Shown piece after piece: positions 567-22,816 of a DNA stretch of 52,992 nucleotides. Position numbers and translations under genes: made by a program. The stretch is from a candidate division WOR-3 bacterium (GTDB lineage Bacteria > Hydrothermota > UBA3072). Location: contig JBDRZZ010000011.1 in the NCBI GenBank assembly GCA_039804165.1, positions 1-52,992 of the forward strand, read 5' to 3'. Below the pieces are notes generated by a model. The model saw nothing but the letters and a program-made list of their open reading frames with translations. It made no database searches and was not told the DNA's origin. Every line of letters starts with the position of its first letter. Position 1 is the stretch's first letter.

Positions 567-581
567 GGTTAAGTCTCCTTT

Positions 582-1658: not shown

Positions 1659-1660
1659 AT

Positions 1661-2845
1661 TTATACCTCCTTTTTGATTTTATAAAATTCGTATGTTTCA
1701 AAGTTTTTAATTTTTTCTCCATACCTTCTAAATGCTTCTACATATTCACTCTCTGCATTATGAACTTCACTGCCAATTGCTATTAGTTCTATGTAAACTG
1801 ATGTCTCAACTGACCCATAAACTGTATTATACCGCTCATCATTATATAAAATTCTTACCTGTAAATCTTCTTCTTTATGTTTAAAGGTCTTAAAACCTTC
1901 TGGTAAATCTACATTTTTTAAAGAATGATTAAGATCCGGGTGAGCGGGATTTTCTTTTAATCTTCTTTTAAGTTCACACACTGATTTTTCAAATATTCTC
2001 TTTCTTCCTTGATTTCTTTCGAGATAATTTTTGACCTCTTCAGATATGTAGAAAAATTCAAAATTTGATTTATATCTTTCCCATAAAGCAACTCCTAATG
2101 GATTAAGAGTATAAAGATTATCCACGAATTCAAGTAATGAAGTTATATCCGGGTCTATTTTTAATTTTTCATTAATTTCTTTTATTTTGTCTTTTTCTAA
2201 TTCAAAAAAGAATTTCTCATTGTTTTCAAAAATTGACCATTTTATATCAATTGGAATAATTGGTATCTTTATCAATGCATCTGTATCTTCAAAGATATAA
2301 TAAATTGGGCATCTATTAATCTGAGCAAGAATTGTAAGATAGGGTATTGTTGCTTTATATCCACCAGTGATGTTAATAATTACATTTTCCCAGTATCCAC
2401 CAGCAATGTTATAAATTTTGCTAATTAGATTTGACATGCCTGTGTTAAATTCTTTTCTATCCCAAATTTGAAGACCACTGATTACCTCGGCTTCAATACG
2501 CCGGTTATTAATTAATTGCGGTAAAATATCTTTTAAAATTTCGCCAGCAAGTTTACTTAAGATTGTATCAGAAGATAAAAGATAAATTTCAAAGTCATCC
2601 TTTAGTTCTTCTTTAAGTTTTACAAGGCTTTTTATTTCTGCAGATATAATTTTCTTATCAGATTCACTTTCTATCCAGTTTTTTACCGCATTTTTTAATC
2701 GTGCAATTCTGCTTTTTTCATTATCCCAATCTTTTTCCCTTTTTTCTTTAAGGTTATCATAATAATTTTTAATTGTTTTGTCACAATTTTTCTCAAAATA
2801 ATTTTCAAAAATTGATGCTCCAACCATTGTAATTACTTTTTTCAT
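1661..2845 (-). CDS. CARF-domain effector with a RelE-like C-terminal region (candidate Cami1-like)
   Basis: This 394-residue protein has an N-terminal CARF-type fold of the APE2256/Cas_APE2256 group: MKKVITMVGAS at the start and the ligand-binding phrase NITGGYKATIPYLTILAQI at about 158-176. Residues about 235-285 look helical and could be a winged-helix linker. Residues about 286-372 (KRRLKENPAHPDL...LQVRILYNDE...YIELIAIGSEVHNAESEY) have the order and spacing of a RelE/HigB-type mRNA interferase, including the R-V-L-Y strand and the final 'iyelaIG...Y' strand. CARF-RelE effectors (Cami1) bind cyclic oligoadenylate and cut ribosomal mRNA. The intact GGDD cyclase of Cas10 nearby fits a cOA-triggered role. 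The CARF call is firm; RelE-like is inference from pattern. The start overlaps the cmr3 stop by 4 nt. Confidence 0.75.
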   Translation of the reverse strand: MKKVITMVGASIFENYFEKNCDKTIKNYYDNLKEKREKDWDNEKSRIARLKNAVKNWIESESDKKIISAEIKSLVKLKEELKDDFEIYLLSSDTILSKLAGEILKDILPQLINNRRIEAEVISGLQIWDRKEFNTGMSNLISKIYNIAGGYWENVIINITGGYKATIPYLTILAQINRCPIYYIFEDTDALIKIPIIPIDIKWSIFENNEKFFFELEKDKIKEINEKLKIDPDITSLLEFVDNLYTLNPLGVALWERYKSNFEFFYISEEVKNYLERNQGRKRIFEKSVCELKRRLKENPAHPDLNHSLKNVDLPEGFKTFKHKEEDLQVRILYNDERYNTVYGSVETSVYIELIAIGSEVHNAESEYVEAFRRYGEKIKNFETYEFYKIKKEV

Positions 2846-3930
2846 AGCACTACCCCCATTAAACTTAGTCCAAAACCTTCTTCTGGATTTATATCTGAAA
2901 TATTTTTAAGATGAAAGACCTCTTTAATCTTCTCAAGCGAACCATTTAAGACTTTAAAATAATAAACGCTTCCTGATGGCACTGCCTTATACATTGGCTT
3001 TGGCTCATTTTTTGCCATATCCCAGCCGCCAATTCTTAAAAATTTACCTACGGCACAGGTAAGGAGCTTTAACTTAACTCCATCTTTTTCGCCTTCTAAC
3101 GAATTTAGATTAATCCATTCAGGTAACCATCCATTTTTAAATATAGCAGGTGTTGCAAGATAGATTTTAAAAACTCCATCACTAAGTTCAAAATTAATAT
3201 TTTCTAATTTTCCCAAGGGATTTTCATTTATTTTCTCAAATTTTGCAGTTTTTCCTTCTCCACCAAGAGCAAAGAGACCTTTCTCCGGCATATTCTCTAT
3301 TCCGTCAATCTTTACTAAAAAACAATAATCTTTTTCTAACCTTATCATTTGGGCTCTGTAAAGATAACCTTCCTTTGAAGAAAGGGTTATGTCGTCCCTT
3401 GCAATACCTATTTGGGGTTCTGGTGTATAAAATTCCGATATAAAAGAATATTCTCCTTTTTGCCCTTGAAGGTATTCTTTGAAAGGGATATTATCTAAAT
3501 ACCCTTCGGTAGATTCCACCTGTTCCTTTTTTGGATAAATGAGCATATCTTCAAGGGAATATTCAGAATAAAATATTTCTGGTTTTTTAACTTTGCTGAT
3601 TTGAAAAAGTTTATCATTTTTCTTATTCTCTTTCTTCATTACCAAATCCAATGGAGCTGGGAAATAAGTAAGGCTATGTTTAGAATTAAAGATAAGTGGA
3701 CCGAAAATTTTCATTGTCCCTTTTTCATCTGGTGTTCCAATATCTTTATATTTTCCATTTTTAAAATCTTTTAAACTGCCTCTTTCAAAAATTAAGAATG
3801 TTCTCAGTGCTCCATAAATGGTAGAAGGATATGGTGAAAAAATGGTATCTGTCCATGTTTCAGAGCCCATAGTAAAGGGTCTTCCGGAGCGGAAGAATAA
3901 GGTATCATTTGGAGAAATCTTTATCCACAT
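2842..3930 (-). CDS. cmr3: Cmr3, Cas5-like subunit of the type III-B effector
   Basis: This 362-residue Cas5-like RAMP binds the 5' handle of the crRNA and contacts Cas10. The N-terminus MWIKISPNDTLFFRSGRPFT is diagnostic of Cmr3, as is the following TIFSPYPSTIYGALRT. The C-terminal IGGWDMAKNEPKPMYKAVPS and NPEEGFGLSLMGVV are the other family signatures. The frame is open 11 codons further upstream, but that would overlap cas10 by 32 nt. The ATG at 3930 has a GGGAGG site about 7 nt before it and lies 1 nt after the cas10 stop, so it was chosen. The CARF effector gene follows with a 4-nt overlap. Confidence 0.94.
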   Translation of the reverse strand: MWIKISPNDTLFFRSGRPFTMGSETWTDTIFSPYPSTIYGALRTFLIFERGSLKDFKNGKYKDIGTPDEKGTMKIFGPLIFNSKHSLTYFPAPLDLVMKKENKKNDKLFQISKVKKPEIFYSEYSLEDMLIYPKKEQVESTEGYLDNIPFKEYLQGQKGEYSFISEFYTPEPQIGIARDDITLSSKEGYLYRAQMIRLEKDYCFLVKIDGIENMPEKGLFALGGEGKTAKFEKINENPLGKLENINFELSDGVFKIYLATPAIFKNGWLPEWINLNSLEGEKDGVKLKLLTCAVGKFLRIGGWDMAKNEPKPMYKAVPSGSVYYFKVLNGSLEKIKEVFHLKNISDINPEEGFGLSLMGVVL

Positions 3931-3931
3931 T

Positions 3932-6685
3932 TTAATCCTCCCTTCTATGGATAAAGGTTGCAATAGTGCAGAAATTAATAAAGCAATCTATGTTTTCTTC
4001 TAAGTTCCAGAATAAATCGCTTAAGTGCGTGAACAAATCTTTTATAAATTCATTTTTTATCTTCTTTTTATCTCTCTCCGATATTTTTTGTTCTTTAGGA
4101 AAGTTATAAGATCTATCAAGAAGTCTCAATATTTCCTTGTTAATAATATCTCCTGTTCCTATAAAAAAGCCTTCTTTGTCTTTTAAGTGCGCAAATTCTA
4201 AGGCAAATTTTTGAATAAAGCTCTTTGATATATAACCTTTTTCATTATTTTCATCAAAAGATTTTGCTATTTCGTTTAATGTCTCAATGGTATCTTTGTC
4301 ATCATATTTCCACTGTGCAGTAGCGATTCTTTCCTCACCAGATCGTTTCATTAAACATATGGCAAATCTATTTCTGCATTCTTTCTTTGCCTTCTTTTCC
4401 ATCTCAAAAACCTTTCCAATAACAATTTGAAGCGGTGTTTTATAATGAGCAATCACAACTCCCATAGAGGCAGTAGATTCTGGACCCATTGTAAGAATGT
4501 ATCTTCCATCTTTTTCTACGAAACCTGTTTGATTGCTTTTTTGATTGCTTTGATTGTTCGGTTCAATTTTAATTATTTTAATTTCTCCATTTTCAACTTT
4601 TACCTGACCTGAAAAGGCCCATCTAAGTTTTTGCATAACATCAAATAAATCTTTAAGATTGACAAAGGCTAAAACATCATCACCACCTGCATAGATTAGT
4701 TTACCGAGATGTTCTTCTTCAACTATTTTTCTCACAAATTCAAGAGCATAGTTTCTCAACGCTGTTGAAATAGAGGCGTGGATGGCAGGGGTTAGAAATT
4801 TTTGGGGTAATATCCTCGTCAAACCTATTTTAAAATCATCGGGTAACTTTTGCCACACCTCGGAATTATAGGCATTTTCAATATCAGGTAAGAGTTCACC
4901 TGAAAGCCATTTGCCCATGTTGTCAGCATCAAGATGAAGTATGGCATAATAGGAATTTGGTTTTCCTACTCTATTAATAAGTTGTTTTAAGTTTTCTTTT
5001 ATCTTTTTTAATTTGGTTTCATCGATTTGGATTCCAACTTCTTCCTTAATATGCTTTTCTGTTAAATTTTCTTCGTAAAACCAATATCCTTCTAAATTTT
5101 CTTTCATATCCAGTCTTGGCAGTGGCTTAGTTGTTGGAAGATTATTTTGAAACATCTCTCTCTGATAGTTGAGAAATTCATTTTGTGCGATTCTTAACGC
5201 TCTTTCTTTAAAATCAGCCAAGGCAACCTCTGCTGTGGATGGGAAAGTTAAATCTTTAAAAACCTGTGATGCTTCTTTTTCAAGGTAAATTTCAAATGTT
5301 CTTTTGATAAAACAAATAGCACAAAGACCTTCACCATCAGCAAGATATTTTAATAGAACTTTTTCATTGTCAGTTAAATCAACAGCATATGGATTAAATC
5401 TTTCGAATTTATTTTTATTAGTAGTTTCTCTAAAGAAAATTACATCTCTTTCCCCACACACTGAGCATTTTCTACCTTTTTCTTCTACCTGCCTAAACTC
5501 TCTTAAGTTCTTCCTTGCTCCCATTGATTTTTCAAGAGCTGAATATAAAATCTCGTAAAGGAGCCCTATGTTAGGTGGAAATTCACCATTATTAGTTGCG
5601 AAGTCCCATAACTCACGATATTTCTTTAAAACTTCATCTTCAAAATAGTCTTTTAGGTCATCAAAGGAAACATCTCTGTCACCAATTTTCCATGGGACGG
5701 CAACCCAGTATATTTCTGGAAAATCCGAAAGTTGAGAGTTGATTTTGCTATTGGCTCTTTCTGAAGGATTTATATTTAGTTCTTGAAATATCAGATCTTT
5801 AGCGTTATTAATTGCGTTTCTTATACTGTTTTGCATTTCCCTGACAAGCTCGTTTATTTCTTTCCCATCAGTTACAGGCAATATAGCCACAAATCTATTT
5901 GGTATGGTCGGAAGTTGAATTGAATTTACATCAAAATCAACTGGCTCAATTCCGTTTTTCTTAAGCCAAAAGTCCATAAGTGGCTGTTTATAAAGGTCTG
6001 GATAAATTATGTTTGTAGGTCCGTATTCATCAATTATTATTTCCATTGCTTTAAAAGTAAGAAATGAAAGGATGAAGCTTCCCATATAAAAATCTTGAGT
6101 CTTTCTTGCCTGAGAGATAAAACTTTGAACTGGTCCTACTGTAAATAGAAAAAGTGAATTGTTTTGATAAAGGACTTTCTCTTCTTCATCCAGATAGGCC
6201 TTGATTGCAGAGGCAATTTTTATATGTTCCCAGATTGAGTGGTCTGGAACTCTTGTATCTGCTGGAAGAAGGGGTAAGTATTTAATCCAGCCTTCATTTT
6301 TTAAATCCTGAAATATTTTATCTTGAAGATTTCTCCAGAGATATAAAAATTTTTTCTTATCATCCAGATTTGAAATTTCTTTACCAATTTTTTCATATAC
6401 CTCTTCAAAGGCTTTAAAGATCTTTTCTTTATTATAATTTTCAATTTTTAAACTCCCTTTACAGAGGGGATGCCTTACCTCGCTGAAATCTTGAATAATT
6501 CCTTTTGCTAATAAACTTCTTTCCATGCATGAGGCAATCTGGTCAGGTCCCTTTCCTTCTTCAACTCCTGAAATAGCAAGTTTTTGAGCATAATTCTTAG
6601 CCCTCTCAATGTGGTTAGGAATGTCAAAGCATTTATCAATTGGATCATGTAAGAAAGCTTTTAGTTTTTCAGTAAAGTTGCTCAT
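3932..6685 (-). CDS. cas10: Cas10/Cmr2, large subunit with cyclic-oligoadenylate cyclase palm domain
   Basis: This 917-residue protein is the large subunit of the Cmr complex. The N-terminus KLKAFLHDPIDK has a His-Asp pair (H13, D14) typical of the Cmr2 HD domain. The sequence TVGPVQSFISQARKTQDFYMGS marks the first palm-like domain. Two CxxC pairs (C407/C410 in CSVCGERD and C455/C458 in CAIC) form the expected zinc site. The active palm motif GGDD is intact at residues 667-670 (YAGGDDVLAF). An intact GGDD implies cyclic oligoadenylate synthesis after target RNA binding, which would activate the CARF protein two genes downstream. The start overlaps the cmr1 stop by 4 nt. Confidence 0.96.
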   Translation of the reverse strand: MSNFTEKLKAFLHDPIDKCFDIPNHIERAKNYAQKLAISGVEEGKGPDQIASCMERSLLAKGIIQDFSEVRHPLCKGSLKIENYNKEKIFKAFEEVYEKIGKEISNLDDKKKFLYLWRNLQDKIFQDLKNEGWIKYLPLLPADTRVPDHSIWEHIKIASAIKAYLDEEEKVLYQNNSLFLFTVGPVQSFISQARKTQDFYMGSFILSFLTFKAMEIIIDEYGPTNIIYPDLYKQPLMDFWLKKNGIEPVDFDVNSIQLPTIPNRFVAILPVTDGKEINELVREMQNSIRNAINNAKDLIFQELNINPSERANSKINSQLSDFPEIYWVAVPWKIGDRDVSFDDLKDYFEDEVLKKYRELWDFATNNGEFPPNIGLLYEILYSALEKSMGARKNLREFRQVEEKGRKCSVCGERDVIFFRETTNKNKFERFNPYAVDLTDNEKVLLKYLADGEGLCAICFIKRTFEIYLEKEASQVFKDLTFPSTAEVALADFKERALRIAQNEFLNYQREMFQNNLPTTKPLPRLDMKENLEGYWFYEENLTEKHIKEEVGIQIDETKLKKIKENLKQLINRVGKPNSYYAILHLDADNMGKWLSGELLPDIENAYNSEVWQKLPDDFKIGLTRILPQKFLTPAIHASISTALRNYALEFVRKIVEEEHLGKLIYAGGDDVLAFVNLKDLFDVMQKLRWAFSGQVKVENGEIKIIKIEPNNQSNQKSNQTGFVEKDGRYILTMGPESTASMGVVIAHYKTPLQIVIGKVFEMEKKAKKECRNRFAICLMKRSGEERIATAQWKYDDKDTIETLNEIAKSFDENNEKGYISKSFIQKFALEFAHLKDKEGFFIGTGDIINKEILRLLDRSYNFPKEQKISERDKKKIKNEFIKDLFTHLSDLFWNLEENIDCFINFCTIATFIHRRED

Positions 6686-7776
6686 AGGACTAACTCCTCT
6701 TTTTGAGGTAAATTATTTAAAAAACTGTTTACCAGTTCTTCAGTAAATAGTTCAACCTTCTTCTTATTCCAATCTCCTCTTCTTACTTCTTTTCCAATTA
6801 ATTTTACTCCTCCAGACGACAATTTTACTACCACTGGAAAATATAAACTCCCTGATGATTTAATGACCTTAAAAATCAGGGCAGAAGCCCACCTCTCTGA
6901 GAGCCGTCTCCTATTATTATCGTAGGGAACCATTCTGATAGAACCTCCTGAATGCATTACAGGCATACCAAAGGTAGCTGTTTCGAAAATTTGAGATTTG
7001 TTCTTAATTCTAAAATTTTTATATTTTTCGCCTAAAGGGTTTAAAGCTTCTTTCCAATCATTATTTGGAGCAAAGATTAAAATTTTTGCATTCTTAAGAT
7101 TCGTATAGTTTGGTTTTGCAGAATTTGTATTAATTCCACAGATTTTTTTAACTTCTATTAGATTCCTTTCCAAAAACTTTTTCAATTGAGAAGTATCTTT
7201 TGCATCACAAATAAAATCAAGATTTATATTGTTATTCTTATCTGCTTTTGTTATCTCTATATTTCCCCCTCCTCTTCTTGCCCTTGTTCCAAATCCACCA
7301 AGGTATATAGCAAGCCAAAGGGAGGCACAGGCTTTATTAAATGCTTCTTCATTCCAAGAGGTTAGAGTTATTTCAAAACTATGACTTTCCTTTACGTAAG
7401 CTCTTTCTCTGTTAGGCAATGCGGTAGAGTATAGTAAATATCCAATGCCTGCATTTTCTCCAGTTAGTGAGTTGGTATTTCTGTCAAAACGCCATATTAA
7501 GTTGTAGTCCCTTTTTAAATTATTGCCTATACTTAGCTGAGATATCCCTTTAATTATCATTTGCACTTTACTTCTCCCTTCTCCTTCCCCTGTTCCACCG
7601 AAAATTTTTGCTTCCTCTTTTCTTAATTTTTCAATATCCTCTTCTGCCTTAATCGCCCTCCACCACCATCGCATCATGCCCTTGAATTCTGAAGGTCTAA
7701 GTTCGGGTGTTCTTCCATCTGCCCCTGCCATAAACATAGGGGTTATAAGTCTACACTTTAAAATTAACCTATTCAT
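6682..7776 (-). CDS. cmr1: Cmr1 RAMP protein of the type III-B effector
   Basis: This 364-residue protein begins MNRLILKCRLITPMFMAGAD and continues ELRPSEFKGMMRWWWRAIKA. That is the hallmark of Cmr1, which sits at the head of the Cmr complex near the 3' end of the crRNA. A second recognisable block is LWLAIYLGGFGTRARRGGGNI at about 154-174, the RAMP glycine-rich loop. The ATG at 7776 has a GGGAGG site 5 nt upstream and overlaps the end of the HD gene by 8 nt. The stop overlaps the cas10 start as ATGA. Length is normal for Cmr1 and there are no defects. Confidence 0.94.
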   Translation of the reverse strand: MNRLILKCRLITPMFMAGADGRTPELRPSEFKGMMRWWWRAIKAEEDIEKLRKEEAKIFGGTGEGEGRSKVQMIIKGISQLSIGNNLKRDYNLIWRFDRNTNSLTGENAGIGYLLYSTALPNRERAYVKESHSFEITLTSWNEEAFNKACASLWLAIYLGGFGTRARRGGGNIEITKADKNNNINLDFICDAKDTSQLKKFLERNLIEVKKICGINTNSAKPNYTNLKNAKILIFAPNNDWKEALNPLGEKYKNFRIKNKSQIFETATFGMPVMHSGGSIRMVPYDNNRRRLSERWASALIFKVIKSSGSLYFPVVVKLSSGGVKLIGKEVRRGDWNKKKVELFTEELVNSFLNNLPQKEELVL

Positions 7777-8500
7777 TTATGCCTCCCATAAGCAATTTCT
7801 TATTTTCCACATACCTTTTTATCTCTTCCACCATCAACCAACCTCCATAATAATCTTCATCGTCTTTCTTCTGGTAATCCTTTCTCTCTCCAGCAGCAGA
7901 GATGTCGCAAAGTTTAAGTATATGATGTGCCAATGATGCTTGAAGCCTTCTCTGATGCTGTTCTAACAATCCACCTCCTTTAGCCCAAATTCTAAGCCCT
8001 CTTGCCATTTCTTTTAACTCGTGAATAGTTAGATTTTTCGCTTCCCCAGGAAACCAATCACTTTCCAATTTATAAGCATCTTTATGCCATATAATATTTC
8101 CATCAAAATCAACAATCCCTTCCAATACTGCCTGTACATCTGGTCTTTCAATGTTATCTCCAAGAAGCCCTTTGTCTGTGTGATGAATGGCAATAGCAAA
8201 ACTTATTGGTTCTCTAAGCCCCGTAGGTAGAATCTTGAAGAGAAAGGCAGCACCAATAGGAGCATGGGATACTTTGGCATTTTTACCCAGATTTTCCTGC
8301 CATCTTTTTGTAAGTTTTCCAAGATCATGGAAACAAATCATCTTTAAAAATGAATTATAAAGAATTTTTTCATCAGTATAACCCAGAATCCTTTTTATTG
8401 GATGCAGGAATAAAGGAAATACAATTTCATATTTTTCTCTGCATAATTCAATATGCGTGAGATATTGTTCGTTTGGTGCGCTAAATATAGATGGGGGCAT
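7769..8500 (-). CDS. Cas3'' HD-type nuclease
   Basis: This 243-residue stand-alone HD domain of the Cas3 family has a metal-binding pair H58-D59 in MICFHDLGKLTKRWQ, a further His at about 79 (SHAPIGAAF) and the HH pair 106-107 in AIAIHHTDKG. The order matches the Cas3'' HD phosphohydrolase fold, which degrades single-stranded DNA in type I interference. It follows the separate helicase gene with a 20-nt overlap, so Cas3 is split into two polypeptides. The ATG at 8500 has a GGAG site 9 nt upstream. In this operon the partners are Cmr genes and not a Cascade, so its exact role here is unclear. Confidence 0.85.
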   Translation of the reverse strand: MPPSIFSAPNEQYLTHIELCREKYEIVFPLFLHPIKRILGYTDEKILYNSFLKMICFHDLGKLTKRWQENLGKNAKVSHAPIGAAFLFKILPTGLREPISFAIAIHHTDKGLLGDNIERPDVQAVLEGIVDFDGNIIWHKDAYKLESDWFPGEAKNLTIHELKEMARGLRIWAKGGGLLEQHQRRLQASLAHHILKLCDISAAGERKDYQKKDDEDYYGGWLMVEEIKRYVENKKLLMGGINE

Positions 8501-10175
8501 CTTTATCTACTCCTTTTTCCGAGTTATAGAGTGAACTTTCAAGAATATAAGTCTTAAATGGTGAAATGTTTTGCTCTTCTTCTTTTTCATTCACTTTCTC
8601 TTTTATCGCTACGACCTTAGGTTGATATTTTTCTTTTTCTTTCTCTTCCCATTTTAGTTCATAACGAATCAATCCATCCTTATACCAGCCCCATAATACT
8701 TTTATGTCAACCTCAAAGGCATAATCACCGAGTCTATTATTTTTTAGAATCTCCTTTATCCCATTCTCTAATTGAGTTTCCTTATTTTCTCTTTTTTTCT
8801 CGCCTATTTTTGGTTCTACCACAATAACTTTTGCAGATTTATTTTTCCTCAACTGTATATTTTTAGGCTCTGAATCTGCGTATAAAACGCATTCATAGAG
8901 GTCAATCAGAGTATCATTTGCCTCATAGTCATTAGCCTGATAATCAAGTGTTTCATCTACAAAAGTAACTACTTGGTTGAAATCTCTGATGTTGAAATTT
9001 CTATTTCTTTTTAACCATTCTAATGTTTTTGTTAGACTCTCTTTTTCATAAGGTAAATGTCCTTTATCGTCCTCTACAGGGAAAATAATCATCTCTCCTT
9101 TTTCACCATTATATCTTGCACATCTTCCGGCTCTCTGGATTAGTGAATCTGCTGGAGCAAGTTCGGTGAGTAAAAGCTCTGCAGAAAAATCAATACCTGC
9201 TTCAAGAACTTGAGTTGATACAACTACACCTACACCTTTAGGAACTTTTATTTCTCCATTTTTCTTCTGGGGAAGCAAAGAAAGAGCTTTATATTCGTGT
9301 GCTCTTCGCTCGAGCCTTGTAAAACGAGAGTGAAGGAGGACAATTTGATCATTGTTTAGTTTGAGCCTCTTTTTAATTTCCTCATAAACTTTCTGTGCTT
9401 TTTTGACCTGGTTTAGGACGATCAATGTCTTATGTTTTTTTATTAACTTGAAGATTGAGTCAGGAATATTTAGTTCGCCGTTTTCAATAACTAAAGGCTT
9501 TTTTTCAATTTTAATGTTAACGGTGGTATAAAAGGGGACCTCACCAAAAATTTTTTGCTTGGTATCAAGTGGGATATTTTCAAAGAGACTTTTTTCCAAT
9601 GTCTGAGGCATTGTTGCGGTCATTAAGATAAAGGGAATTTTACTCTGGTAAAGTATTTCCATTATTGCCCGCATTATAGAAAAAGTAAACTCGTCCCTGT
9701 ACATATGGGCTTCATCGAAGACTACAATTGAGGATGCAATAGAACCAGCGGGTAAATCTATGTGTTTTCCCACCTGTTTGCTTGTTCTGGCGAAACCGTA
9801 AAGAAACTGGTCAAGGGTAGTGACTATAATGTCGTCAATAAAGAATGGAGAATTCGGCGTATCTCCGTGTTGAATTTGAACAGAAATATATGGAGAAACT
9901 TTTTTTGCATAACCTTCAATCCTTTTGGCGATTGAATCGGCAAGGACTCTCATAGGAAGGACATAGATTAATCGTGGAGCAAAGAAATTATTTTCCAAAA
10001 ACTGATTGAGAAATGGAGCGATTAGTGCTTCTGTTTTTCCAGAACCAGTTGGCGCTTTAACCAATAATGGAAAATTGAATTTTTCCCAATTTTCAAATAT
10101 TTTCCATACTTGTTCTTGGTGAGAGTAAGGTTCGGAAATTTTTAAAAAGTTTTTATAAAACTCTTTGAATTTCAT
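8481..10175 (-). CDS. cas3: Cas3' DExH-box helicase
   Basis: This 564-residue SF2 helicase has Walker A APTGSGKT at 41-48 and a DEAH box at 154-157 (VVFDEAHMYRDEF). Motif III is MTATMPQTL, followed by VLNQVKKA, the motif V region VGVVVSTQVLEAGIDFSAE and motif VI QRAGRCARYNG. The overall pattern is that of CRISPR-type Cas3 helicases, which unwind DNA for the HD nuclease. It is flanked upstream by a non-cas gene (4-nt ATGA overlap) and downstream by its HD partner (20-nt overlap). No Cas8, Cas5 or Cas7 of a type I Cascade is present in the window, which is odd for a Cas3 pair. Confidence 0.9.
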   Translation of the reverse strand: MKFKEFYKNFLKISEPYSHQEQVWKIFENWEKFNFPLLVKAPTGSGKTEALIAPFLNQFLENNFFAPRLIYVLPMRVLADSIAKRIEGYAKKVSPYISVQIQHGDTPNSPFFIDDIIVTTLDQFLYGFARTSKQVGKHIDLPAGSIASSIVVFDEAHMYRDEFTFSIMRAIMEILYQSKIPFILMTATMPQTLEKSLFENIPLDTKQKIFGEVPFYTTVNIKIEKKPLVIENGELNIPDSIFKLIKKHKTLIVLNQVKKAQKVYEEIKKRLKLNNDQIVLLHSRFTRLERRAHEYKALSLLPQKKNGEIKVPKGVGVVVSTQVLEAGIDFSAELLLTELAPADSLIQRAGRCARYNGEKGEMIIFPVEDDKGHLPYEKESLTKTLEWLKRNRNFNIRDFNQVVTFVDETLDYQANDYEANDTLIDLYECVLYADSEPKNIQLRKNKSAKVIVVEPKIGEKKRENKETQLENGIKEILKNNRLGDYAFEVDIKVLWGWYKDGLIRYELKWEEKEKEKYQPKVVAIKEKVNEKEEEQNISPFKTYILESSLYNSEKGVDKDAPIYI

Positions 10176-11107
10176 TTAATCTCCATTCTTACCTCAAACT
10201 TTACAAAATCTTGGAAAAACTCAGATTTTTTGAAAACCTTCTTTCTCCATGGACCTTCTTTTTCTATCTTTTTATCTACAAATCCAAAATATTCCATTAG
10301 GTCAAAAGTTCTCAAAATGTAACACAAACTTCTCTCATCTTCATTATCTTTTCTGGATAATTTCTCAATTTCTTCTTCATTGAAGAACTCCTCATAATAG
10401 GGAAGGTCATAAGAAAACCAATAAGATTTTAGAGGGAATACCTCCAAAAACTTCTGGGCATAAAATTCGCTTTCCCTATAAATATCTCCAAATTTGTGTA
10501 AGAGATAAAGAGAAAATAGAAATCCTTTTTGAATTATAAAATAGAAGAATTTATCCCAGTAGAAATAAGACCAATTTATTGAATTTATTGCAATATCTAT
10601 GTAACTTAGAAATCTTTCGTAAGAAGAGTGTTTAATAAACTCTTTTTCTTTAAAAACCAACGTTCTTTTCCCTTTTTCAAAAAATTCTCTATTAAAAGTT
10701 ATAATGTTTCTTATTCTAAATAAATGGGTAACTGCTTCTTCAGAGGTAATCTTCTGTTCGCTACCACGATGAAATTCATAATTTTCAAAAATTTTACAAG
10801 AAAAGAATAAATTGTTAACATCTTTAAGTTTAAGATTTTTGTTCTTGGTGAGCTTTAGCTTTCCCCCGTTTGCCTTAAGGATTCCAACAAGTTTTTCTTC
10901 CAGATCTAATATTGGGGTTTTTAGTAATTTTTCCTCAGGGATGTTTTTGTTAAATTGAAGGAAAGGACTTAAAGATTTAAAATCTTCAAAAGTAAGTAAT
11001 TTAAACATTTGTAAGGGTGATAATCCATAAAATTCCTCGGATGGCGTCTCTTTTACCTTTTCTATAAACTCTAAGAATTCTTTTACTAAATCATAGTCGC
11101 CTGTCAA
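10172..11107 (-). CDS. Uncharacterised protein coupled to the cas operon (GLSPxQM family)
   Basis: This 311-residue protein matches no Cas family I recognise. Its N-terminal part (VKETPSEEFYGLSPLQMFKLL, then LKANGGKLKLTKNKNLKLKDV) resembles a family of uncharacterised bacterial proteins often seen beside pRiA4b ORF-3-like genes. The rest is rich in aromatic residues and lysine and looks helical. It starts with TTG (TTGA overlap with the upstream stop) behind a GGAGG site and ends in an ATGA overlap with cas3. It is therefore translated together with the cas genes. Function is unknown. It could be an accessory CRISPR protein or a passenger of the preceding DUF gene. Confidence 0.6.
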   Translation of the reverse strand: MTGDYDLVKEFLEFIEKVKETPSEEFYGLSPLQMFKLLTFEDFKSLSPFLQFNKNIPEEKLLKTPILDLEEKLVGILKANGGKLKLTKNKNLKLKDVNNLFFSCKIFENYEFHRGSEQKITSEEAVTHLFRIRNIITFNREFFEKGKRTLVFKEKEFIKHSSYERFLSYIDIAINSINWSYFYWDKFFYFIIQKGFLFSLYLLHKFGDIYRESEFYAQKFLEVFPLKSYWFSYDLPYYEEFFNEEEIEKLSRKDNEDERSLCYILRTFDLMEYFGFVDKKIEKEGPWRKKVFKKSEFFQDFVKFEVRMEIK

Positions 11108-12138
11108 AATAACCTCCTTCTAAACAGTTCTTTTTTAGCTTCTTCTAATTCTTTAAGGCTTTCTATTACCATTAGCTCGATTTCTAATTCCTTTGCAATT
11201 TGTTTAAATAATAAGTAACATTCTTTCTTTTTTACAAGAATCCTCAAGGGAGTTATCCTTTTGAATTCTATTATGTCTAAGAACTTATTAAGAAATTCCT
11301 TAAGGTATTCCCGGGATTTGGATAGTTGGAAATCTATAATTAAGCCTGATAAGTGGTCAATGAATAAACATACAAGGGGATAATATGGCACTTCCTCTTC
11401 TTTTTCTTGAATTGTAAAAGGTGCATAAAAGAAATCAATTTCCCATTCACCTTCTTTTGAGTTAATACTTTCTTTCGCTTCTTTTATAGAATAATCATCT
11501 ATGATTGGGATTTTTATCACTTCTGGTTTGAATTCTGGTCTTATCCACTTTTCTTCCCATTTAATTTTCTTTCCCTTTTTCTCTGGAGTCATCACAAATA
11601 ATAATCCCTTTTGGGGAGGTGTAAAAAGTGTTTCGTTTTTCTTGAAAAGCAAAGCAACATTTTTGGCTTGTTCTAACATAATTGTTAAAAATCGCACTTC
11701 TTCTTTTGTAAGAAACCAAGGATAAAAACCGGGTTTATATCTTCTAAATATAGGCCATTGATTTTCTCCTTGAAATTTTAATTCAAGTCTTTCGATAACT
11801 TCTAGGTCTTTTTTATGTAGAACTTCTTTATTGACAAATGAAGCTACAAGGCAATCTTGAACATAAAGTATTTCTGAATCAAAGGAAGCTTCTTCTTGAG
11901 TTAGCATTTTGAGATAGCTTTTTAGCCCTTCTTCTCCAAGGTAGACATTTAAGGAAAAAAATTCTCCAAGATTTCCCAAAACACTACAATATCCTATTTC
12001 TTTTGTTTCTGGGTCTTGAACCCCAAATAGGTCTGTGTCAAACATCCAGTTCCAACACTCTATGTCTCTAAAATCTACGGCTGCAGTATATAGTTTCTCC
12101 CATTCTTCTAATGTTATGTCTTTTGTTATTTTACTCAC
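11104..12138 (-). CDS. DUF7309/DUF6930-like protein embedded in the cas operon
   Basis: This 344-residue protein has an N-terminal block WEKLYTAAVDFRDIECWNWM then FDTDLFGVQDPETKEIGYCS, which I recognise as the pattern of the DUF7309 family. The C-terminal half (about 180-340) resembles the DUF6930-type partner domain. Neither has an established function. The frame is open 30 codons further upstream into cas6, but a GTG at 12138 with AGGGAG about 6 nt before it gives a normal coupled start just ahead of the cas6 stop (8-nt overlap), so it was chosen. It forms a TTGA-overlapping pair with the next gene. It is not a described cas gene. Family names are from memory of the motif and should be checked by profile search. 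Confidence 0.6.
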   Translation of the reverse strand: MSKITKDITLEEWEKLYTAAVDFRDIECWNWMFDTDLFGVQDPETKEIGYCSVLGNLGEFFSLNVYLGEEGLKSYLKMLTQEEASFDSEILYVQDCLVASFVNKEVLHKKDLEVIERLELKFQGENQWPIFRRYKPGFYPWFLTKEEVRFLTIMLEQAKNVALLFKKNETLFTPPQKGLLFVMTPEKKGKKIKWEEKWIRPEFKPEVIKIPIIDDYSIKEAKESINSKEGEWEIDFFYAPFTIQEKEEEVPYYPLVCLFIDHLSGLIIDFQLSKSREYLKEFLNKFLDIIEFKRITPLRILVKKKECYLLFKQIAKELEIELMVIESLKELEEAKKELFRRRLF

Positions 12139-12907
12139 TTTTGCTCCCTTCTTTGCCATGGAGATTAAGGATCTCGAACATTCCAAAACCTTCTGAATTT
12201 TTCGCTCCAATCCCTGCATTCCAGGCAAGTTTTAACATTTCTGGATGGCTTTTGAGTGTATATACTCCAAGCCATCCTTTTATTACATATTTGTTTTTGT
12301 AATAGGTGATTTGTTCGCTATTTTTGCTCAACTTTTCTGGGATTATTTTGAATTCCTGAGAGGGTGGTTGACATTTGTATAAAGCTTTGTATTTTCTCTT
12401 GATGTTTTCGGAAACTAGCTCTGAAAATTCTGATTCACGAGGATGAAAATAATATGTTTTTTTCTTTCCTATTTTATCTTCTAAGGTTCTGTAAACTGTT
12501 ATGGGCGAGAGCATCTTTACTGTTATTTCTTCTCCAAAAGTTGGAGTTATACCTATTTCTATAGAGTGGACATACACTCTTTGCTCTCCTATCCATAACT
12601 CAGGCTTTTTTAAGAGTTCTGTTGCATACGATTCAAGGAAATCACTTAGAGGAGAGGAAACCCAAAATTCAAAATTATCTTTAAAAATGAGAGTTTTAGT
12701 CTCTTTCTCGTAAATGGATTTTCCTGAAATTCTTGAAAAGGTAAACATTTTGAAAGTTCTTTTCCCTAATGAGTAACCCTTCCCATGAAGAAAATCTGAG
12801 AGATTTTTAGAAATATTTCGGTAAATAAAAGACTGGATAAGATAATTGTAGTTCACAGGAATCTTAAATAAACTATTTTCAGGTAAAAAATTTATTCTAA
12901 TTCTCAT
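12131..12907 (-). CDS. cas6: Cas6 crRNA-processing endoribonuclease
   Basis: This 258-residue protein starts MRIRINFLPENSLFKIPVNY and contains LIQSFIYRNISKNLSDFLHG near the N-terminus. It ends with the glycine-rich loop AWNAGIGAKNSEGFGMFEIL, the defining Cas6 feature. Cas6 cuts the pre-crRNA within the repeat to release units for the Cmr complex. It is the first gene of the operon, preceded by a promoter-like sequence and without a clear Shine-Dalgarno site. The repeat array it would process is not in this window. Confidence 0.93.
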   Translation of the reverse strand: MRIRINFLPENSLFKIPVNYNYLIQSFIYRNISKNLSDFLHGKGYSLGKRTFKMFTFSRISGKSIYEKETKTLIFKDNFEFWVSSPLSDFLESYATELLKKPELWIGEQRVYVHSIEIGITPTFGEEITVKMLSPITVYRTLEDKIGKKKTYYFHPRESEFSELVSENIKRKYKALYKCQPPSQEFKIIPEKLSKNSEQITYYKNKYVIKGWLGVYTLKSHPEMLKLAWNAGIGAKNSEGFGMFEILNLHGKEGSKSE

Positions 12908-18023: not shown

Positions 18024-18389
18024 ATGAAGAAGACAAAAGGACAAATTGAGGCTCAAATTAGCGAAGCAATTACGAAGTTTGAAAAGGAATATATGGGAAG
18101 AGGCCCAAAAGAAACAAAGACTTATATCCTAAAGGATATGGTTTTTGTTAGACTTAAGGGTGTTCTTACTTTAGCAGAGGAGAAATTGGCACAGAGTCCT
18201 GAAGGGGCAGATTTGATAAAGAGAGTAAGGATGCAACTTTTAGAAAATGGAAGGACTTTATTAGAGAAGATAATCTTGGAAAATACCGGAGCTACCGTGA
18301 AAAGTATGCATACTGATATAAGCACAAGGACTGGAGAAAGAGTTATAATTTTTATACTCGATAAAAATTTAGAGGAAAATTTCTTTTGA
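18024..18389 (+). CDS. DUF2294 family protein
   Basis: This 121-residue protein begins KKTKGQIEAQISEAITKFEK and continues YMGRGPKETKTYILKDMVFV, the recognised DUF2294 (sometimes labelled Na-translocating decarboxylase domain) signature. The middle has RLKGVLTLAEEKLAQSPEG and the end SMHTDISTRTGERVIIFIL. Members are small soluble proteins of unknown role found in many thermophiles and Firmicutes. It starts 3 nt after asnA ends and is the last gene of the suf-asnA operon. The next promoter begins 5 nt after its stop. Confidence 0.85.
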   Translation: MKKTKGQIEAQISEAITKFEKEYMGRGPKETKTYILKDMVFVRLKGVLTLAEEKLAQSPEGADLIKRVRMQLLENGRTLLEKIILENTGATVKSMHTDISTRTGERVIIFILDKNLEENFF

Positions 18390-18394
18390 AAGGA

Positions 18395-18422
18395 TTGACA
18401 AAATTAGTTTTTTTGTTATAAT
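18395..18422 (+). promoter_or_regulatory. Consensus promoter of the PEPCK leader RNA
   Basis: TTGACA (18395-18400), exactly 16 nt, TATAAT (18417-18422): a full match to both consensus hexamers and the best promoter in the window. Transcription should start near 18429. Confidence 0.8.
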
Positions 18423-18428
18423 TTTCCC

Positions 18429-18541
18429 TGGGAAGACTGTAAGCAAAAGCCGAAAGTGGCGGTTGCTGAGTAAGCCAATGAATTGTTCCCTTAGTTCTCT
18501 TTTTAAAGTTAAGAGAGCGGGGAACAGGAGTTGGCTTTTTT
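18429..18541 (+). ncRNA. Structured leader RNA upstream of PEPCK (candidate riboswitch, attenuator or sRNA)
   Basis: About 113 nt lie between the consensus promoter and a T-run, with no reading frame of note. One hairpin pairs AGCAA (18442-18446) with TTGCT (18463-18467), with an inner GCC/GGC stem closed by a GAAA-containing loop. GGGAA (18430-18434) can pair with TTCCC (18486-18490), closing a domain around that hairpin. The same TTCCC is also part of the terminator stem (with GGGAAC at 18520-18525), so the two folds exclude each other. This is the usual layout of a transcription-controlling riboswitch. I could not match it to a known class. An independent small RNA is the alternative. Confidence 0.6.
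18473..18541 (+). terminator. Long-stem intrinsic terminator before PEPCK (attenuator)
   Basis: Three stacked stems share one axis. AGCCAA (18473-18478) pairs with TTGGCT (18531-18536). TGTTCCC (18484-18490) pairs with GGGAACA (18520-18526). An 8-bp stem GTTCTCTT/AAGAGAGC (18494-18501 with 18511-18518) includes one G-U pair. Six T follow at 18536-18541. It ends 32 nt before the pckG ATG, so it would block the operon unless the upstream GGGAA sequence captures its 5' arm. Confidence 0.75.
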
Positions 18542-18573
18542 ATTGCTTTTAAGTTTGTTTTTTAGGAGGAGAA

Positions 18574-20346
18574 ATGAAGAAACCACTTGAGAAATGGGTA
18601 GAAGAGCAGGCTGAGTTATGTGAGCCAGAGAAAATCTTTTGGTGTGATGGATCAGAGGAAGAGGCTCGCAAAATTGTTGAAATTGGTATTGAAGAAGAAA
18701 GGATAGGAGAAACTCCTGTTTTTCAAGAATTAAATCACAAAATTTGGCCGAATGCTTACCTTCATAGGAGTCATCCTACTGATGTAGCAAGAACAGAGCA
18801 TCTTACTTATGTTTGTCATCCTGATAAAGAAACTGCAGGCCCTAATAACAATTGGATGCATCCTGAGGAAGCCAAGGAGAAAATGCGAACTTTATTTAAA
18901 GGTTGTATGAAAGGAAGGACAATGTATGTCCTTCCTTATATGATGGGGCACCCTGATTCTCCTTATGCAAAGGCTTGTGTTCAAATTACAGATATTTCTT
19001 ATGTGGCTGTGAGTATGCGAATAATGACCAGAATGAGTAAAGAAGTTATTGAGAAAATTGGGGAGAGAGATGATTTTGTGAGAGGGCTTCATTCTGTTGG
19101 TGATTTTGATCCAAATAAGCGTTTTATTATGCATTTCCCGGAAGAAAATCTAGTTTTAAGTATTGGTTCAGGGTATGGAGGTAACGCTCTTTTAGGAAAA
19201 AAATGTTTTTCTTTACGGATTGCTTCTTGGCTTAGTTTTCAAGAAGGATGGCTTGCGGAGCATATGGTAATTATAGGTGTAGAGGATCCTGAAGGAAATA
19301 TTACTTATCTTACTGCTGCAATGCCTTCTGCCTGTGGTAAAACAAATTTAGCTATGTTAGAGTCAGCTTTGCCAGGTTATAAAGTCTGGACATTGGGCGA
19401 TGATATTGCTTGGTTAAATATTGGATCTGATGGAAGGCTATATGCCATTAATCCTGAGACTGGGCTTTTTGGAGTGGCTCCTGGGACTTCTACAAAAACA
19501 AATCCCAATGTGATGAAGACTTTAAAAGCAGCTGAATTTTATCCAACACTATTTACTAACACAGCTTTAAATATTGATACAAATGAACCTTGGTGGGAAG
19601 GCTTAGATGAAAAACCTCCAAAGAATCTTTTGGATTGGCGAGGTAAACCTTGGGATAGCTCGACCGGAACAAAAGCTGCTCATCCTAATTCTCGTTTTAC
19701 TGTTTCAATATATAACTCTCCAATCCTATCCAAGGAATTTGATAATCCAAAAGGAGTTCCAATTTCAGGGATTATATTTGGAGGAAGAAGAAGCCATCTT
19801 ATTCCTTTAGTTGTGGAAGCTTTTGATTGGGAACATGGGGTTTTTATGGGTGCAAAAAATGGTTCAGAGACAACAGCAGCAGCTATCCACGAGATAGGTG
19901 TTTTAAGAAGAGACCCAATGGCAATGCTTCCTTTTTGCGGTTATAATATGGGTGATTATTTTCAACATTGGTTAAATATAGGGAACCGCTTGAAACATCC
20001 ACCAAAAATATTTTCTGTGAATTGGTTTAGGGTTGATGAAGATGGGAAAATTATCTGGCCAGGATTTGGAGAAAATATAAGGGTTATAAAGTGGATTATA
20101 GATAGAACCAAAGATAAGGTTGGAGCAAAAAGCACACCTCTTGGATATGTTCCTTATCCGGAAGATTTAAATTTGGAAGGTCTTTCTATTCCTAAGGAGA
20201 AACTACAGAAGTTGTTTGAGATTAATCCTTCGGAATGGGGTAGGGAACTACTTGAAATCAAGGAATTCTTTTCTCGGTTTGGTAATCGCTTACCAAATGG
20301 GCTCTGGAAACAATACGAAACTTTGAAGAAAGAGTTGGGGTTTTAG
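18574..20346 (+). CDS. pckG: Phosphoenolpyruvate carboxykinase (GTP)
   Basis: This 590-residue GTP-type PEPCK interconverts oxaloacetate and PEP + CO2 using GTP/GDP. The P-loop with the reactive cysteine lies at about 249-262, MPSACGKTNLAML with C254. Other family blocks are HSVGDFDPNKRF, GSGYGGNALLGKKCFSLRIA, WTLGDDIAWL and GVPISGIIFGGRRSHLIPLV; GNRLKHPPKIFSVNWFR lies near the end. The length is that of GTP enzymes (about 600) and not ATP enzymes (about 540). A strong AGGAGG site precedes the ATG. The gene sits behind the structured leader and terminator, and the next gene follows after 23 nt. Confidence 0.97.
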   Translation: MKKPLEKWVEEQAELCEPEKIFWCDGSEEEARKIVEIGIEEERIGETPVFQELNHKIWPNAYLHRSHPTDVARTEHLTYVCHPDKETAGPNNNWMHPEEAKEKMRTLFKGCMKGRTMYVLPYMMGHPDSPYAKACVQITDISYVAVSMRIMTRMSKEVIEKIGERDDFVRGLHSVGDFDPNKRFIMHFPEENLVLSIGSGYGGNALLGKKCFSLRIASWLSFQEGWLAEHMVIIGVEDPEGNITYLTAAMPSACGKTNLAMLESALPGYKVWTLGDDIAWLNIGSDGRLYAINPETGLFGVAPGTSTKTNPNVMKTLKAAEFYPTLFTNTALNIDTNEPWWEGLDEKPPKNLLDWRGKPWDSSTGTKAAHPNSRFTVSIYNSPILSKEFDNPKGVPISGIIFGGRRSHLIPLVVEAFDWEHGVFMGAKNGSETTAAAIHEIGVLRRDPMAMLPFCGYNMGDYFQHWLNIGNRLKHPPKIFSVNWFRVDEDGKIIWPGFGENIRVIKWIIDRTKDKVGAKSTPLGYVPYPEDLNLEGLSIPKEKLQKLFEINPSEWGRELLEIKEFFSRFGNRLPNGLWKQYETLKKELGF

Positions 20347-20369: not shown

Positions 20370-21563
20370 ATGGTAATATCAAAGAGGGTAAGTCAGATTA
20401 GTCCATCTCCAACTTTGTCAATCACTGCAAAAGCAAAGAAGATGAAAATAGAAGGTATTAATGTTATTGGTTTTGGAGCTGGTGAACCTGATTTTGATAC
20501 ACCTCTTAATATTAAAGAGGCAGCTAAGGAGGCACTTGATAAGGGGTTTACTAAATATACTCCTACTTCTGGAATAAGAGAATTGAAAGAAGCAATTATA
20601 GAAAAACTTAAGAAAGATAATGGTTTAGAGTATTTTCCCGAAGAGATTCTTGTTTCTTGTGGAGCAAAACACTCTATTTTTAATGCACTTTTAACATTAT
20701 GTGAGGAAGAGGATGAGGTGATTTTACCCTCTCCATATTGGGTGAGTTATTTGGAAATGATTAAGATAACAGGGGCGAAAGCGGTTTTATTAAAAACGGA
20801 TTGGAAAAATAATTTTAAAATTGATCCTCAACAATTAGAAAGAGTAATTACACCTAAAACAAAATTATTGATTCTAAATACCCCTTCAAATCCCACAGGA
20901 ATGGTTTACACAAAAAAAGAGTTGACTGCAATTAGTGAAATTCTGATTAAAAGAAGTATTTTTTGTCTTTCTGATGAGATTTACGAGAAATTAATCTACG
21001 ATGGGTATAAACATGTCAGTATTGCTTCTTTAGGAGGAGGGATAAAAAATTTAACGATAGTTATAAATGGTGTTTCTAAAGCCTATTCAATGACAGGTTG
21101 GAGGATTGGTTATGCTGCAGGACCAAAAGAAATAATTCAAGCAATGTCAAATCTTCAGGATCATTCAACTTCTAATCCAACCTCTATTGCTCAATATGCG
21201 AGTATAGAAGCTTTAAGAGGTATTCAAGAAGATTTAAGAAAAATGGTTGAAGAGTTTGATAAGAGGCGAAGATATATAGTAGAGAGAATAAATTCAATAA
21301 ATGAAGTAAAAGTAATTAAGCCAAATGGGACATTCTATTGTTGGGTGAATGTAAAAAATTTATATGGTAAGTCTTATAATGGTTGTTTGATTAAGGATTC
21401 GCTTTCTTTGGCGGAACTACTTCTTAGTGAAGCGAAAATAGCTGTGGTTCCGGGTTGCGTTTTTGGAGATGATGATTATATAAGAATATCATACGCTTTA
21501 TCTATGGAAGATATTGTTGAAGGAATAAATAGATTTGAAGAATTTATAAGTAAACTTTGTTAA
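20370..21563 (+). CDS. Class I PLP aminotransferase, aspartate aminotransferase type
   Basis: This 397-residue fold-type I aminotransferase of the AspAT Ib group begins VISKRVSQISPSPTLSITAK, with GFGAGEPDFDTPLNIK early on. It also shows NTPSNPTGMVYTKKEL and SDEIYEKLIYDGYKHVS, and the PLP lysine is K237 in NGVSKAYSMTGWRIGY. It very likely transfers the amino group between aspartate and 2-oxoglutarate, but related enzymes act on other amino acids. It lies between PEPCK and a citrate/homocitrate synthase-like enzyme. Both neighbours use or make oxaloacetate, which supports aspartate as substrate. Two AGGAGG sites precede the start. Confidence 0.9.
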   Translation: MVISKRVSQISPSPTLSITAKAKKMKIEGINVIGFGAGEPDFDTPLNIKEAAKEALDKGFTKYTPTSGIRELKEAIIEKLKKDNGLEYFPEEILVSCGAKHSIFNALLTLCEEEDEVILPSPYWVSYLEMIKITGAKAVLLKTDWKNNFKIDPQQLERVITPKTKLLILNTPSNPTGMVYTKKELTAISEILIKRSIFCLSDEIYEKLIYDGYKHVSIASLGGGIKNLTIVINGVSKAYSMTGWRIGYAAGPKEIIQAMSNLQDHSTSNPTSIAQYASIEALRGIQEDLRKMVEEFDKRRRYIVERINSINEVKVIKPNGTFYCWVNVKNLYGKSYNGCLIKDSLSLAELLLSEAKIAVVPGCVFGDDDYIRISYALSMEDIVEGINRFEEFISKLC

Positions 21564-21580: not shown

Positions 21581-22816
21581 ATGCCTAAAATTTATATAAT
21601 TGATGTGACAAATCGCGATGGTGTTCAAACTTCCCGTATTTGCCTTTCTAAATTACAGAAAACCATAATAAATCTTTATCTTTCTCAAATGGGAATTTTC
21701 CAGTCTGAATTTGGCTTTCCTACGACTCGTCATGAAACAAATTATCTAAACGCAAACTTGGAGTTAGCCAAAATGGGAGTTTTTGGGGATATGCGTTTAG
21801 AGGGATGGATTAGGGCTATTGAAGATGATGTGGCGTTGGCATTTAAATTGGTTCCTGGGATTGAATATCTCAATTTGTCTATTTCTACCTCTGATCAGAT
21901 GATTTCTCATAAATTTAAGGGAAAGTTGGATCATGAGTTAGTTATAAAAGAGATGACTAGTGCGGTAAAATTAGCTAAAGAATTAGGAGCAAAGTCTATT
22001 GGAGTAAATGCTGAAGATGCTTCTCGTTCTAATATGGATTATCTTATTTCTTTTGCATTAGCGGCTAAGGAAGCAGGAGCGGATAGATTCCGTTATTGTG
22101 ATACTCTTGGATATGATACCCCTTTTACAATATATGAAAGGGTTAAAAAAATTGCAGAAAAAATAAAAATTCCTATAGAATTGCATTGCCATAATGATCT
22201 TGGAATGGTTGTTGCTACTTCAGTAGCAGGAGCTATGGCGGCTTGTGATGCTGGAGTGGATGCTTATATTAATACCTGTATAAATGGTATGGGAGAGAGG
22301 GCGGGGAATGCAGACCTTGTTTCTGTGATCTTAGCAATTAAATATGGAAGTGGAATGGATAAATATACTCTGGATGAGAGTATTAATTTGAAGATGGCTT
22401 GGAGAATTTGCAAATATGCTTCTTATGCATTTGGTATTCCAATTCCAATTAATCAACCTGGAGTTGGTGCTAATGCTTTTGCTCATGAATCAGGGATTCA
22501 TGCAGATGGAGCTCTTAAAGATAGGCGCAATTATGAACTTTACGATTTTGAGGAGCTTGGAAGGGGAGAACCAGAGATCATTGAAACAGGGAGACAGATC
22601 ACTGTAGGGGAATATTCTGGAATAAAAGGTTTTAGGAATGTATATGAAAAGCTGGAGATAGCTTTCGAGGATGATGCTGAAGCAACTAAGATTCTTGAAC
22701 TTGTGAGGTTTGCTAATGTTCATAATCAAAAGCCTTTGGTGGAGGAAGAGTTAAAGTTTATTGCTCGTTATCCTGAAATCGCTAAAAAGATTATGACGAT
22801 GTCACCTTTAGCTTGA
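21581..22816 (+). CDS. Homocitrate/2-isopropylmalate synthase family enzyme (possibly Re-citrate synthase)
   Basis: This 411-residue DRE-TIM metallolyase has the active-site segment VTNRDGVQTSR at residues 9-19 (R12, D13), SEFGFPTTRHETNYLNANLE and GVNAEDASRSNMDYLISF. The metal site is LHCHNDLGM (H202, H204), followed by CINGMGERAGNADLVSVI. These enzymes condense acetyl-CoA with a 2-oxo acid. The context of PEPCK and an aspartate aminotransferase suggests oxaloacetate, which would make it a Re-type citrate synthase. Homocitrate synthase (2-oxoglutarate) is the main alternative, and no leu or lys genes lie nearby. It lacks the C-terminal LeuA allosteric domain. The family call is firm; the substrate is inference. 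Confidence 0.8.
   Translation: MPKIYIIDVTNRDGVQTSRICLSKLQKTIINLYLSQMGIFQSEFGFPTTRHETNYLNANLELAKMGVFGDMRLEGWIRAIEDDVALAFKLVPGIEYLNLSISTSDQMISHKFKGKLDHELVIKEMTSAVKLAKELGAKSIGVNAEDASRSNMDYLISFALAAKEAGADRFRYCDTLGYDTPFTIYERVKKIAEKIKIPIELHCHNDLGMVVATSVAGAMAACDAGVDAYINTCINGMGERAGNADLVSVILAIKYGSGMDKYTLDESINLKMAWRICKYASYAFGIPIPINQPGVGANAFAHESGIHADGALKDRRNYELYDFEELGRGEPEIIETGRQITVGEYSGIKGFRNVYEKLEIAFEDDAEATKILELVRFANVHNQKPLVEEELKFIARYPEIAKKIMTMSPLA

Follow-up and report, generated by a model that had tools for sequence, protein, structure and literature searches.

How is the pckG gene of a candidate division WOR-3 bacterium, which encodes a PEP carboxykinase (PEPCK), transcribed when a terminator lies between its promoter and its first codon? 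We analyzed the window, a stretch of 52,992 nucleotides from the genome of this bacterium. In the window, a structured RNA extends from about 18429 to 18543 with the terminator at its 3′ end, and pckG starts 32 nt beyond. The genes and signals of the locus are as follows:

18024..18389, + strand: mpsC (DUF2294, PF10057), 121 aa, candidate regulator (Pfam, E 1.5e-41)
18395..18422, + strand: sigma-70 type promoter TTGACA-16-TATAAT with extended -10 (TG), 12/12 consensus
18536..18541, + strand: U tract of the terminator, six U (read from the sequence)
18564..18569, + strand: Shine-Dalgarno sequence AGGAGG of pckG (found by eye)
18574..20346, + strand: pckG, GTP-dependent PEP carboxykinase, 590 aa, heads the controlled operon (NCBIfam NF003253)
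20370..21563, + strand: aspartate-aminotransferase-like gene, 23 nt past pckG (Pfam Aminotran_1_2, spacing)
21581..22816, + strand: HMGL-like or NifV-type acyl synthase gene, 17 nt further (Pfam HMGL-like)

Promoter, terminator, and probable operon

The promoter consists of TTGACA (18395-18400), a spacer of 16 nt, and TATAAT (18417-18422) preceded by TG. Of 14 promoter-like sites within 6 kb, it alone scores 12/12, and this score was found in 0 of about 2,090 random 72-mers drawn from the same loci. A second strong promoter of similar type is present elsewhere in the genome (G000:C9, L002:1501-1533, 33 nt with 88% identity to that of the window).

An intrinsic terminator separates the promoter from the first codon and is conserved in nine copies of the RNA described below. 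A simple terminator scan missed it because the hairpin is long and interrupted. The 32-nt gap between terminator and pckG is too short for a promoter, and thus pckG transcription must cross the terminator. The pckG product, whose ATG is at 18574, matched NF003253 with 832 bits (cut-off 504). The aminotransferase-like gene and the NifV-type acyl synthase gene are probably in one operon with pckG; the match of the latter to NCBIfam nifV_homocitr was below the cut-off. On the - strand, window positions 144-12907 hold an apparent type III-B (Cmr) CRISPR cluster, read from translations only, which includes a Cas3-like HD protein and helicase and a Cas6-like protein.

Homologs of the RNA and their distribution

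At the gathering threshold of Rfam release 15, the window gave nothing except a 5S rRNA elsewhere, and even with E up to 10, matches in the RNA region did not exceed chance level. The RNA copies of five other genomes (G022, G150, G505, G520, and G422, see below) also had no match at threshold. The preliminary description of this locus had recognized no known riboswitch class, and the covariance search bears this out; 6S RNA, SRP RNA, tmRNA, T-box, and known riboswitches were rejected as without Rfam support. In addition, among open-licence PMC papers, one mentioned DUF2294/PF10057, for a fungal secretome, and nothing on the RNA was found. Judged from Rfam 15 and these papers, the RNA very probably represents an attenuator class without prior description.

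A covariance model from the window RNA alone (R1) was searched in 147 genomes of the phylum. The single convincing relative was in G022, a genome of a second family (E 2.7e-4), and no copy was detected in G003, which belongs to the same genus as the window's genome. The direct alignment of the window and G022 sequences scored 46, and the maximum was 32 in 2,000 dinucleotide shuffles. The two-sequence model (R2) matched Elusimicrobia CG1_02_37_114 (G150, E 1.2e-9). Furthermore, the three-sequence model (R3), run on 341 Elusimicrobiota genomes, matched G520 (E 2.1e-12), G422 (E 2.8e-7), and a tandem pair in G505 (E 2.7e-13 and 3.3e-12). This pair (L149:1387-1616) lies between mpsC and a PEPCK gene, and each of the two directly adjoining RNA copies carries a terminator. 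None of 79 sequence-pattern matches in viral contigs scored with R3, and thus the model is specific.

For an independent test, plasmid records were queried with MpsC without regard to the RNA and then scanned for it. Two of the three best MpsC matches carried the RNA directly behind mpsC, namely Acetoanaerobium noterae (45.5 bits, E 9.6e-9) and Anoxybacillus amylolyticus (36.6 bits, E 1.2e-6). These Bacillota copies begin 0-3 nt past the mpsC stop codon and lack a promoter of their own; in the window and most other non-Bacillota members, the RNA comes with both a promoter and a terminator of its own. Altogether, there are nine copies in eight loci of at least three phyla. Since the genome searches scored limited candidates per genome, this distribution is a lower bound and absences carry little weight.

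Model matches L121-L132, L142, L143, and L148 were rejected as weak: L122, L123, and L148 are inside coding sequence, and the others are at chance level for the genomes searched. The weak match L121:1501-1608 (- strand, G129) is non-homologous by sequence, yet has an attenuator-like layout: a promoter close to the consensus is followed by a terminator, and a start codon comes about 40 nt later.

Structure and covariation

The folding energy of the 119-nt RNA was -45.4 kcal/mol, compared with -28.9 +/- 3.0 kcal/mol for dinucleotide shuffles (z -5.5; 0 of 200 as low). Its parts are the following:

18429..18431, + strand: 5′ strand of P1 (UGG), putative antiterminator (minimum free energy fold of the leader minus the terminator 3′ arm)
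18432..18435, + strand: 5′ side of a purine-rich internal loop (GAAG here, usually AAG; from the alignment)
18436..18471, + strand: P2a-P2b-P3 hairpin, two-sided covariation in 8 of 10 pairs
18436-18438/18469-18471, + strand: P2a, ACU/AGU
18442-18446/18463-18467, + strand: P2b, AGCAA/UUGCU
18449-18451/18458-18460, + strand: P3, GCC/GGC
18472..18474, + strand: 3′ side of the internal loop (AAG), common to the terminator base (from the alignment)
18475..18477, + strand: 3′ strand of P1 (CCA), also within T1, the switch point
18472..18537, + strand: intrinsic terminator, with base T1 at 18472-18479/18530-18537
18483-18491/18519-18527 and 18494-18501/18511-18518, + strand: upper stems (T2) of the terminator

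Because MAFFT on the raw pair put the 5′ hairpin out of register, we used a model-based alignment of eight sequences (A10). In A10, standard pairs are formed in 97.4% of cells, and when the pairing partners were slid by 1-3 columns as a control, 33-49% were paired. None of 500 shuffles reached A10 in any of five measures. A10 was fitted to the structure, so its covariation counts lean towards that structure; a hand alignment of seven sequences, independent of the model, agrees with it (two rows were short by 1-2 bases, with the conclusion unchanged). The preliminary description had proposed a switch-like transcription attenuator ahead of PEPCK. This is supported by homologs with covarying pairs (two-sided compensatory changes in 19 of 26), and PEPCK also follows the RNA in three other genomes. 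The positions it gave for the promoter, GGGAA (18430-18434), TTCCC (18486-18490), GGGAAC (18520-18525), a hairpin (18442-18467), the six T, and the pckG spacing were all correct. This hairpin is real and covarying, but the GAAA-containing loop, from which a sensor domain had been suggested, is not conserved.

The switch itself differs from the one first described, in which GGGAA and GGGAAC compete for UUCCC. That competition is peculiar to the window's genome: the fraction of shuffles with a duplex at least as good was 0.07 in the window, but 0.55-0.96 in six other sequences, where the duplex energy is unremarkable. What the copies appear to share is a competition between a weak stem P1 (UGG/CCA here) and the terminator base T1 (GCCAA(C/U)/(A/G)UUGGC). 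The P1 3′ strand, CCA(A), doubles as the T1 5′ strand, and thus the two stems are mutually exclusive. In all nine copies, the minimum free energy fold of the terminator-free leader contains a P1-type stem, followed by a purine-rich loop near 3 × 3 (usually AAG/AAG), P2a, P2b, and a variable P3 hairpin.

P1 is only 2-4 bp long, and its register is shifted in G150 and Anoxybacillus. In the latter, the terminator base reads CCGG with UCGG opposite, and P1 UUGG could still pair with CCGG through two G-U pairs according to our reading of the sequence. The GG:CC of P1 is maintained in all eight aligned sequences, and 87.5% of P1 cells are paired. No two-sided change was found in P1, so its pairing is consistent but unproven. 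When P1 was enforced in the window RNA, T1 was lost and T2 was retained (-36.9 vs. -45.4 kcal/mol). Since T2 can form together with P1 and T1 cannot, the switch need control only the lower terminator next to the U tract. Taken across the copies, the attenuator logic is well supported.

Genes around the RNA

The results of gene order showed that mpsC/DUF2294 is directly upstream of the RNA in seven of the eight loci. The preliminary description had considered a protein regulator conceivable, and this idea gains weight from the arrangement. The exception is G022, in which the RNA has its own promoter and lies downstream of phoU (phoU and pstB were read by eye) in place of mpsC; MpsC was not seen in 947 kb (41%) of this genome. 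The gene behind the G022 copy (L090:1-92, - strand, MRKKRWFSLSGLKELTRKLVRVD...) is cut by the contig end, and a peptide search on it gave chance matches only.

In every copy, the terminator is about 20-50 nt ahead of a start codon, and the genes behind it differ. For instance, the order is mpsC-RNA-PEPCK in G520, mpsC-RNA-RNA-PEPCK in G505 (a PEPCK of another GTP type, about 35% identical to that of the window), and mpsC-RNA-hexapeptide protein-PEPCK in G422. The hexapeptide protein is of the gamma-carbonic-anhydrase/CcmM kind, an assignment based on NCBIfam matches below the cut-off. PEPCK is thus behind the RNA in three further genomes. In G150, the order is mpsC-RNA-mpsC2-cation ATPase, and the RNA is flanked by two MpsC/DUF2294 genes. 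In addition, the RNA is followed by a lactate-type MFS transporter in A. noterae (NCBIfam SfMCT above the cut-off) and by a Na+-dependent bicarbonate transporter (Sbt_1) in A. amylolyticus. The class is not confined to PEPCK genes, for it also precedes bicarbonate and lactate-type transporters and a second MpsC.

A general PEPCK leader was rejected as well. No counterpart was found upstream of PEPCK in 80 public genomes, whose PEPCK loci had neither MpsC nor the RNA within about 3 kb, or in L006-L008. The nearest public relatives of the window PEPCK are 64-78% identical and have no such leader. The window PEPCK is only 34% identical to that of the other genome of its genus, whereas it is about 77% identical to the Elusimicrobiota copies near the RNA (G520 and G422). 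This suggests that the mpsC-RNA-pckG unit may have been transferred between phyla.

The genes behind the RNA thus encode PEPCK of two distant subtypes, a gamma-carbonic-anhydrase-like protein, and bicarbonate and lactate-type transporters. DUF2294 genes without a detectable RNA occur in Staphylococcus pettenkoferi (51% identical), Bacillus badius, Bacillus licheniformis, and a phage record; no MpsC was found in the viral contigs searched. Neighbors of DUF2294 genes lacking the RNA include DabA, an inorganic-carbon transporter subunit, and formate dehydrogenase genes. Distant DUF2294 genes in Bacillus plasmids (L153 and L234) adjoin fdhD and fdhF, with no RNA copy detected. Judging from gene content, the neighborhoods suggest a common theme of CO2, bicarbonate, formate, and small carboxylic acids; such a theme does not identify a ligand.

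MpsC as a candidate regulator

In the window's genome, a single copy of mpsC was found, and its product is 64-70% identical to those encoded directly upstream of the RNA in Elusimicrobiota. In Staphylococcus aureus, an mpsC deletion grows normally, and MpsAB works without mpsC, which is dispensable for bicarbonate supply; furthermore, mpsC and mpsAB do not lie together outside staphylococci (PMC6689103). This fits a regulator. AlphaFold predicted a confident alpha/beta fold for MpsC from one sequence (pLDDT 85.7), and Foldseek found no PDB match for it at E <= 0.001. The isoelectric points of three MpsC proteins range from 5.3 to 9.2. Thus, the protein itself gives no evident sign of RNA binding. 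Nevertheless, mpsC is the constant 5′ neighbor while the controlled gene varies, and this favors MpsC as the factor; on these genomic grounds, it may well be the protein that acts on the RNA.

A possible mechanism and its alternatives

We propose a cis-acting attenuator located after mpsC, in which P1 and T1 are the alternative states and MpsC holds P1. For this account as a whole, we consider the probability to be about one half. The structure, its conservation and covariation, the gene order, and the P1/T1 overlap are computed; for the ON direction, the binding by MpsC, and the signal, we infer the likeliest solution. RNA polymerase would start at the consensus promoter or, in Bacillota members, arrive from mpsC. 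The 5′ stem would be made first, with P1, the internal loop near 3 × 3, P2a, P2b, and the P3 hairpin. If P1 is unheld, the 3′ arm would displace it, T1 would form, and the transcript would end at a length of about 113 nt. With P1 and the internal loop held, T1 would be blocked, and T2 alone would be too distant from the U tract for termination, so that pckG and the two following genes would be transcribed. Read-through would result from a factor that stabilizes P1 and the internal loop by about 9 kcal/mol, or that acts before the 3′ arm exists. MpsC most likely would hold P1, as LicT or BglG holds the RAT hairpin, and its signal may relate to inorganic carbon or to small carboxylic acids.

A held stem that allows read-through is the logic of both RAT elements and ON riboswitches. 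In RAT elements, a hairpin bound by BglG, SacY, or LicT overlaps the terminator, with the regulator gene upstream and the controlled gene downstream. The RNA described here has the same two features, namely a short hairpin, interrupted by internal loops, that has one strand in common with the terminator 5′ arm, and a candidate regulator gene directly upstream of the switch with the controlled gene directly downstream. However, its sequence differs, CAT and PRD domains are missing from MpsC (Pfam found MpsC only), and the genes concern PEPCK and bicarbonate and lactate-type transport, whereas RAT elements serve sugar uptake. Since the adjacent protein lacks CAT and PRD, the RNA may work like RAT but is not RAT. 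It also resembles ON riboswitches of the fluoride, ZTP, and guanidine type in the small aptamer-like stem, closed by a helix that uses one strand of the terminator, the one tandem example, and the varied downstream genes with one theme; it differs from them in that the scanned members have no Rfam match and a conserved protein gene is adjacent.

The main rival is a small-molecule riboswitch, in which the internal loops of P1-P3 bind a ligand directly, the P1/T1 switching is the same, and MpsC is just a pathway neighbor. The architecture and covariation fit it equally, tandem arrangements such as that in G505 are familiar among riboswitches, and G022 has the RNA with no adjacent mpsC. The genes for PEPCK, the gamma-carbonic-anhydrase-like protein, and the Na+/bicarbonate and lactate-type transporters share small carbon acids, and bicarbonate/CO2, PEP, oxaloacetate, lactate, or a related signal would be tentative candidates for the ligand. 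However, beyond the terminator, only a small part is conserved (GG-AAG-AC ... GU-AAG), most stems are freely variable, and a large invariant pocket is not visible. Moreover, an mpsC gene directly upstream in seven of eight loci with varying controlled genes is the pattern of a dedicated protein regulator. We thus regard the riboswitch as possible but less probable than regulation by MpsC.

The own promoter and terminator in the window and most non-Bacillota members would also fit an independent small RNA, and a terminator behind mpsC is nothing unusual, so that the element could merely close the mpsC operon with pckG reached by leak-through. Indeed, an autonomous small RNA was our first reading after the G022 copy was found, and it was demoted because all members are just ahead of a start codon. 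It is improbable that either holds: the 32 nt leave no room for a promoter and pckG must be read through, the Bacillota copies follow the mpsC stop within 0-3 nt and are promoterless, and a plain terminator requires no conserved covarying 5′ stem overlapping its base. Like T-boxes and leader-peptide attenuators, the locus has predicted terminator/antiterminator alternatives ahead of a metabolic operon, but the T-box model gave no match, even with E up to 10, and there is no conserved translated leader peptide. The idea that translation of an open reading frame overlapping the terminator (MNCSLSSLFKVKRAGNRSWLFYCF) sets termination draws on an open frame through the window RNA, preserved by a 9-nt indel in G022 (by eye). 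It is very improbable, with the Shine-Dalgarno sequence absent, the ATG missing in G022 and other members, and the similarity explained by the conserved RNA pairing.

Significance for MpsC and carbon metabolism

The staphylococcal MpsABC/DabAB locus offers a further comparison with regulation by MpsC. There too, mpsC/DUF2294 adjoins inorganic-carbon genes (L152), but mpsC follows dabA-type genes and no RNA copy was detected. As a tentative idea, somewhat doubtful at present, MpsC/DUF2294 might act as an RNA-binding antiterminator of a new type, with CO2, bicarbonate, or a closely linked metabolite as its signal and the RNA class as its target in at least three phyla.

The RNA adds a well-supported structured class that is absent from Rfam 15 and looks like a new type of switch for carbon metabolism. 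It gives a first functional lead for MpsC/DUF2294, a widespread family, and ties the RNA and MpsC to PEPCK and to bicarbonate and lactate-type transport. Furthermore, RNA-level control of C4 and inorganic-carbon genes may now be tested directly in culturable Bacillota such as Anoxybacillus and Acetoanaerobium.
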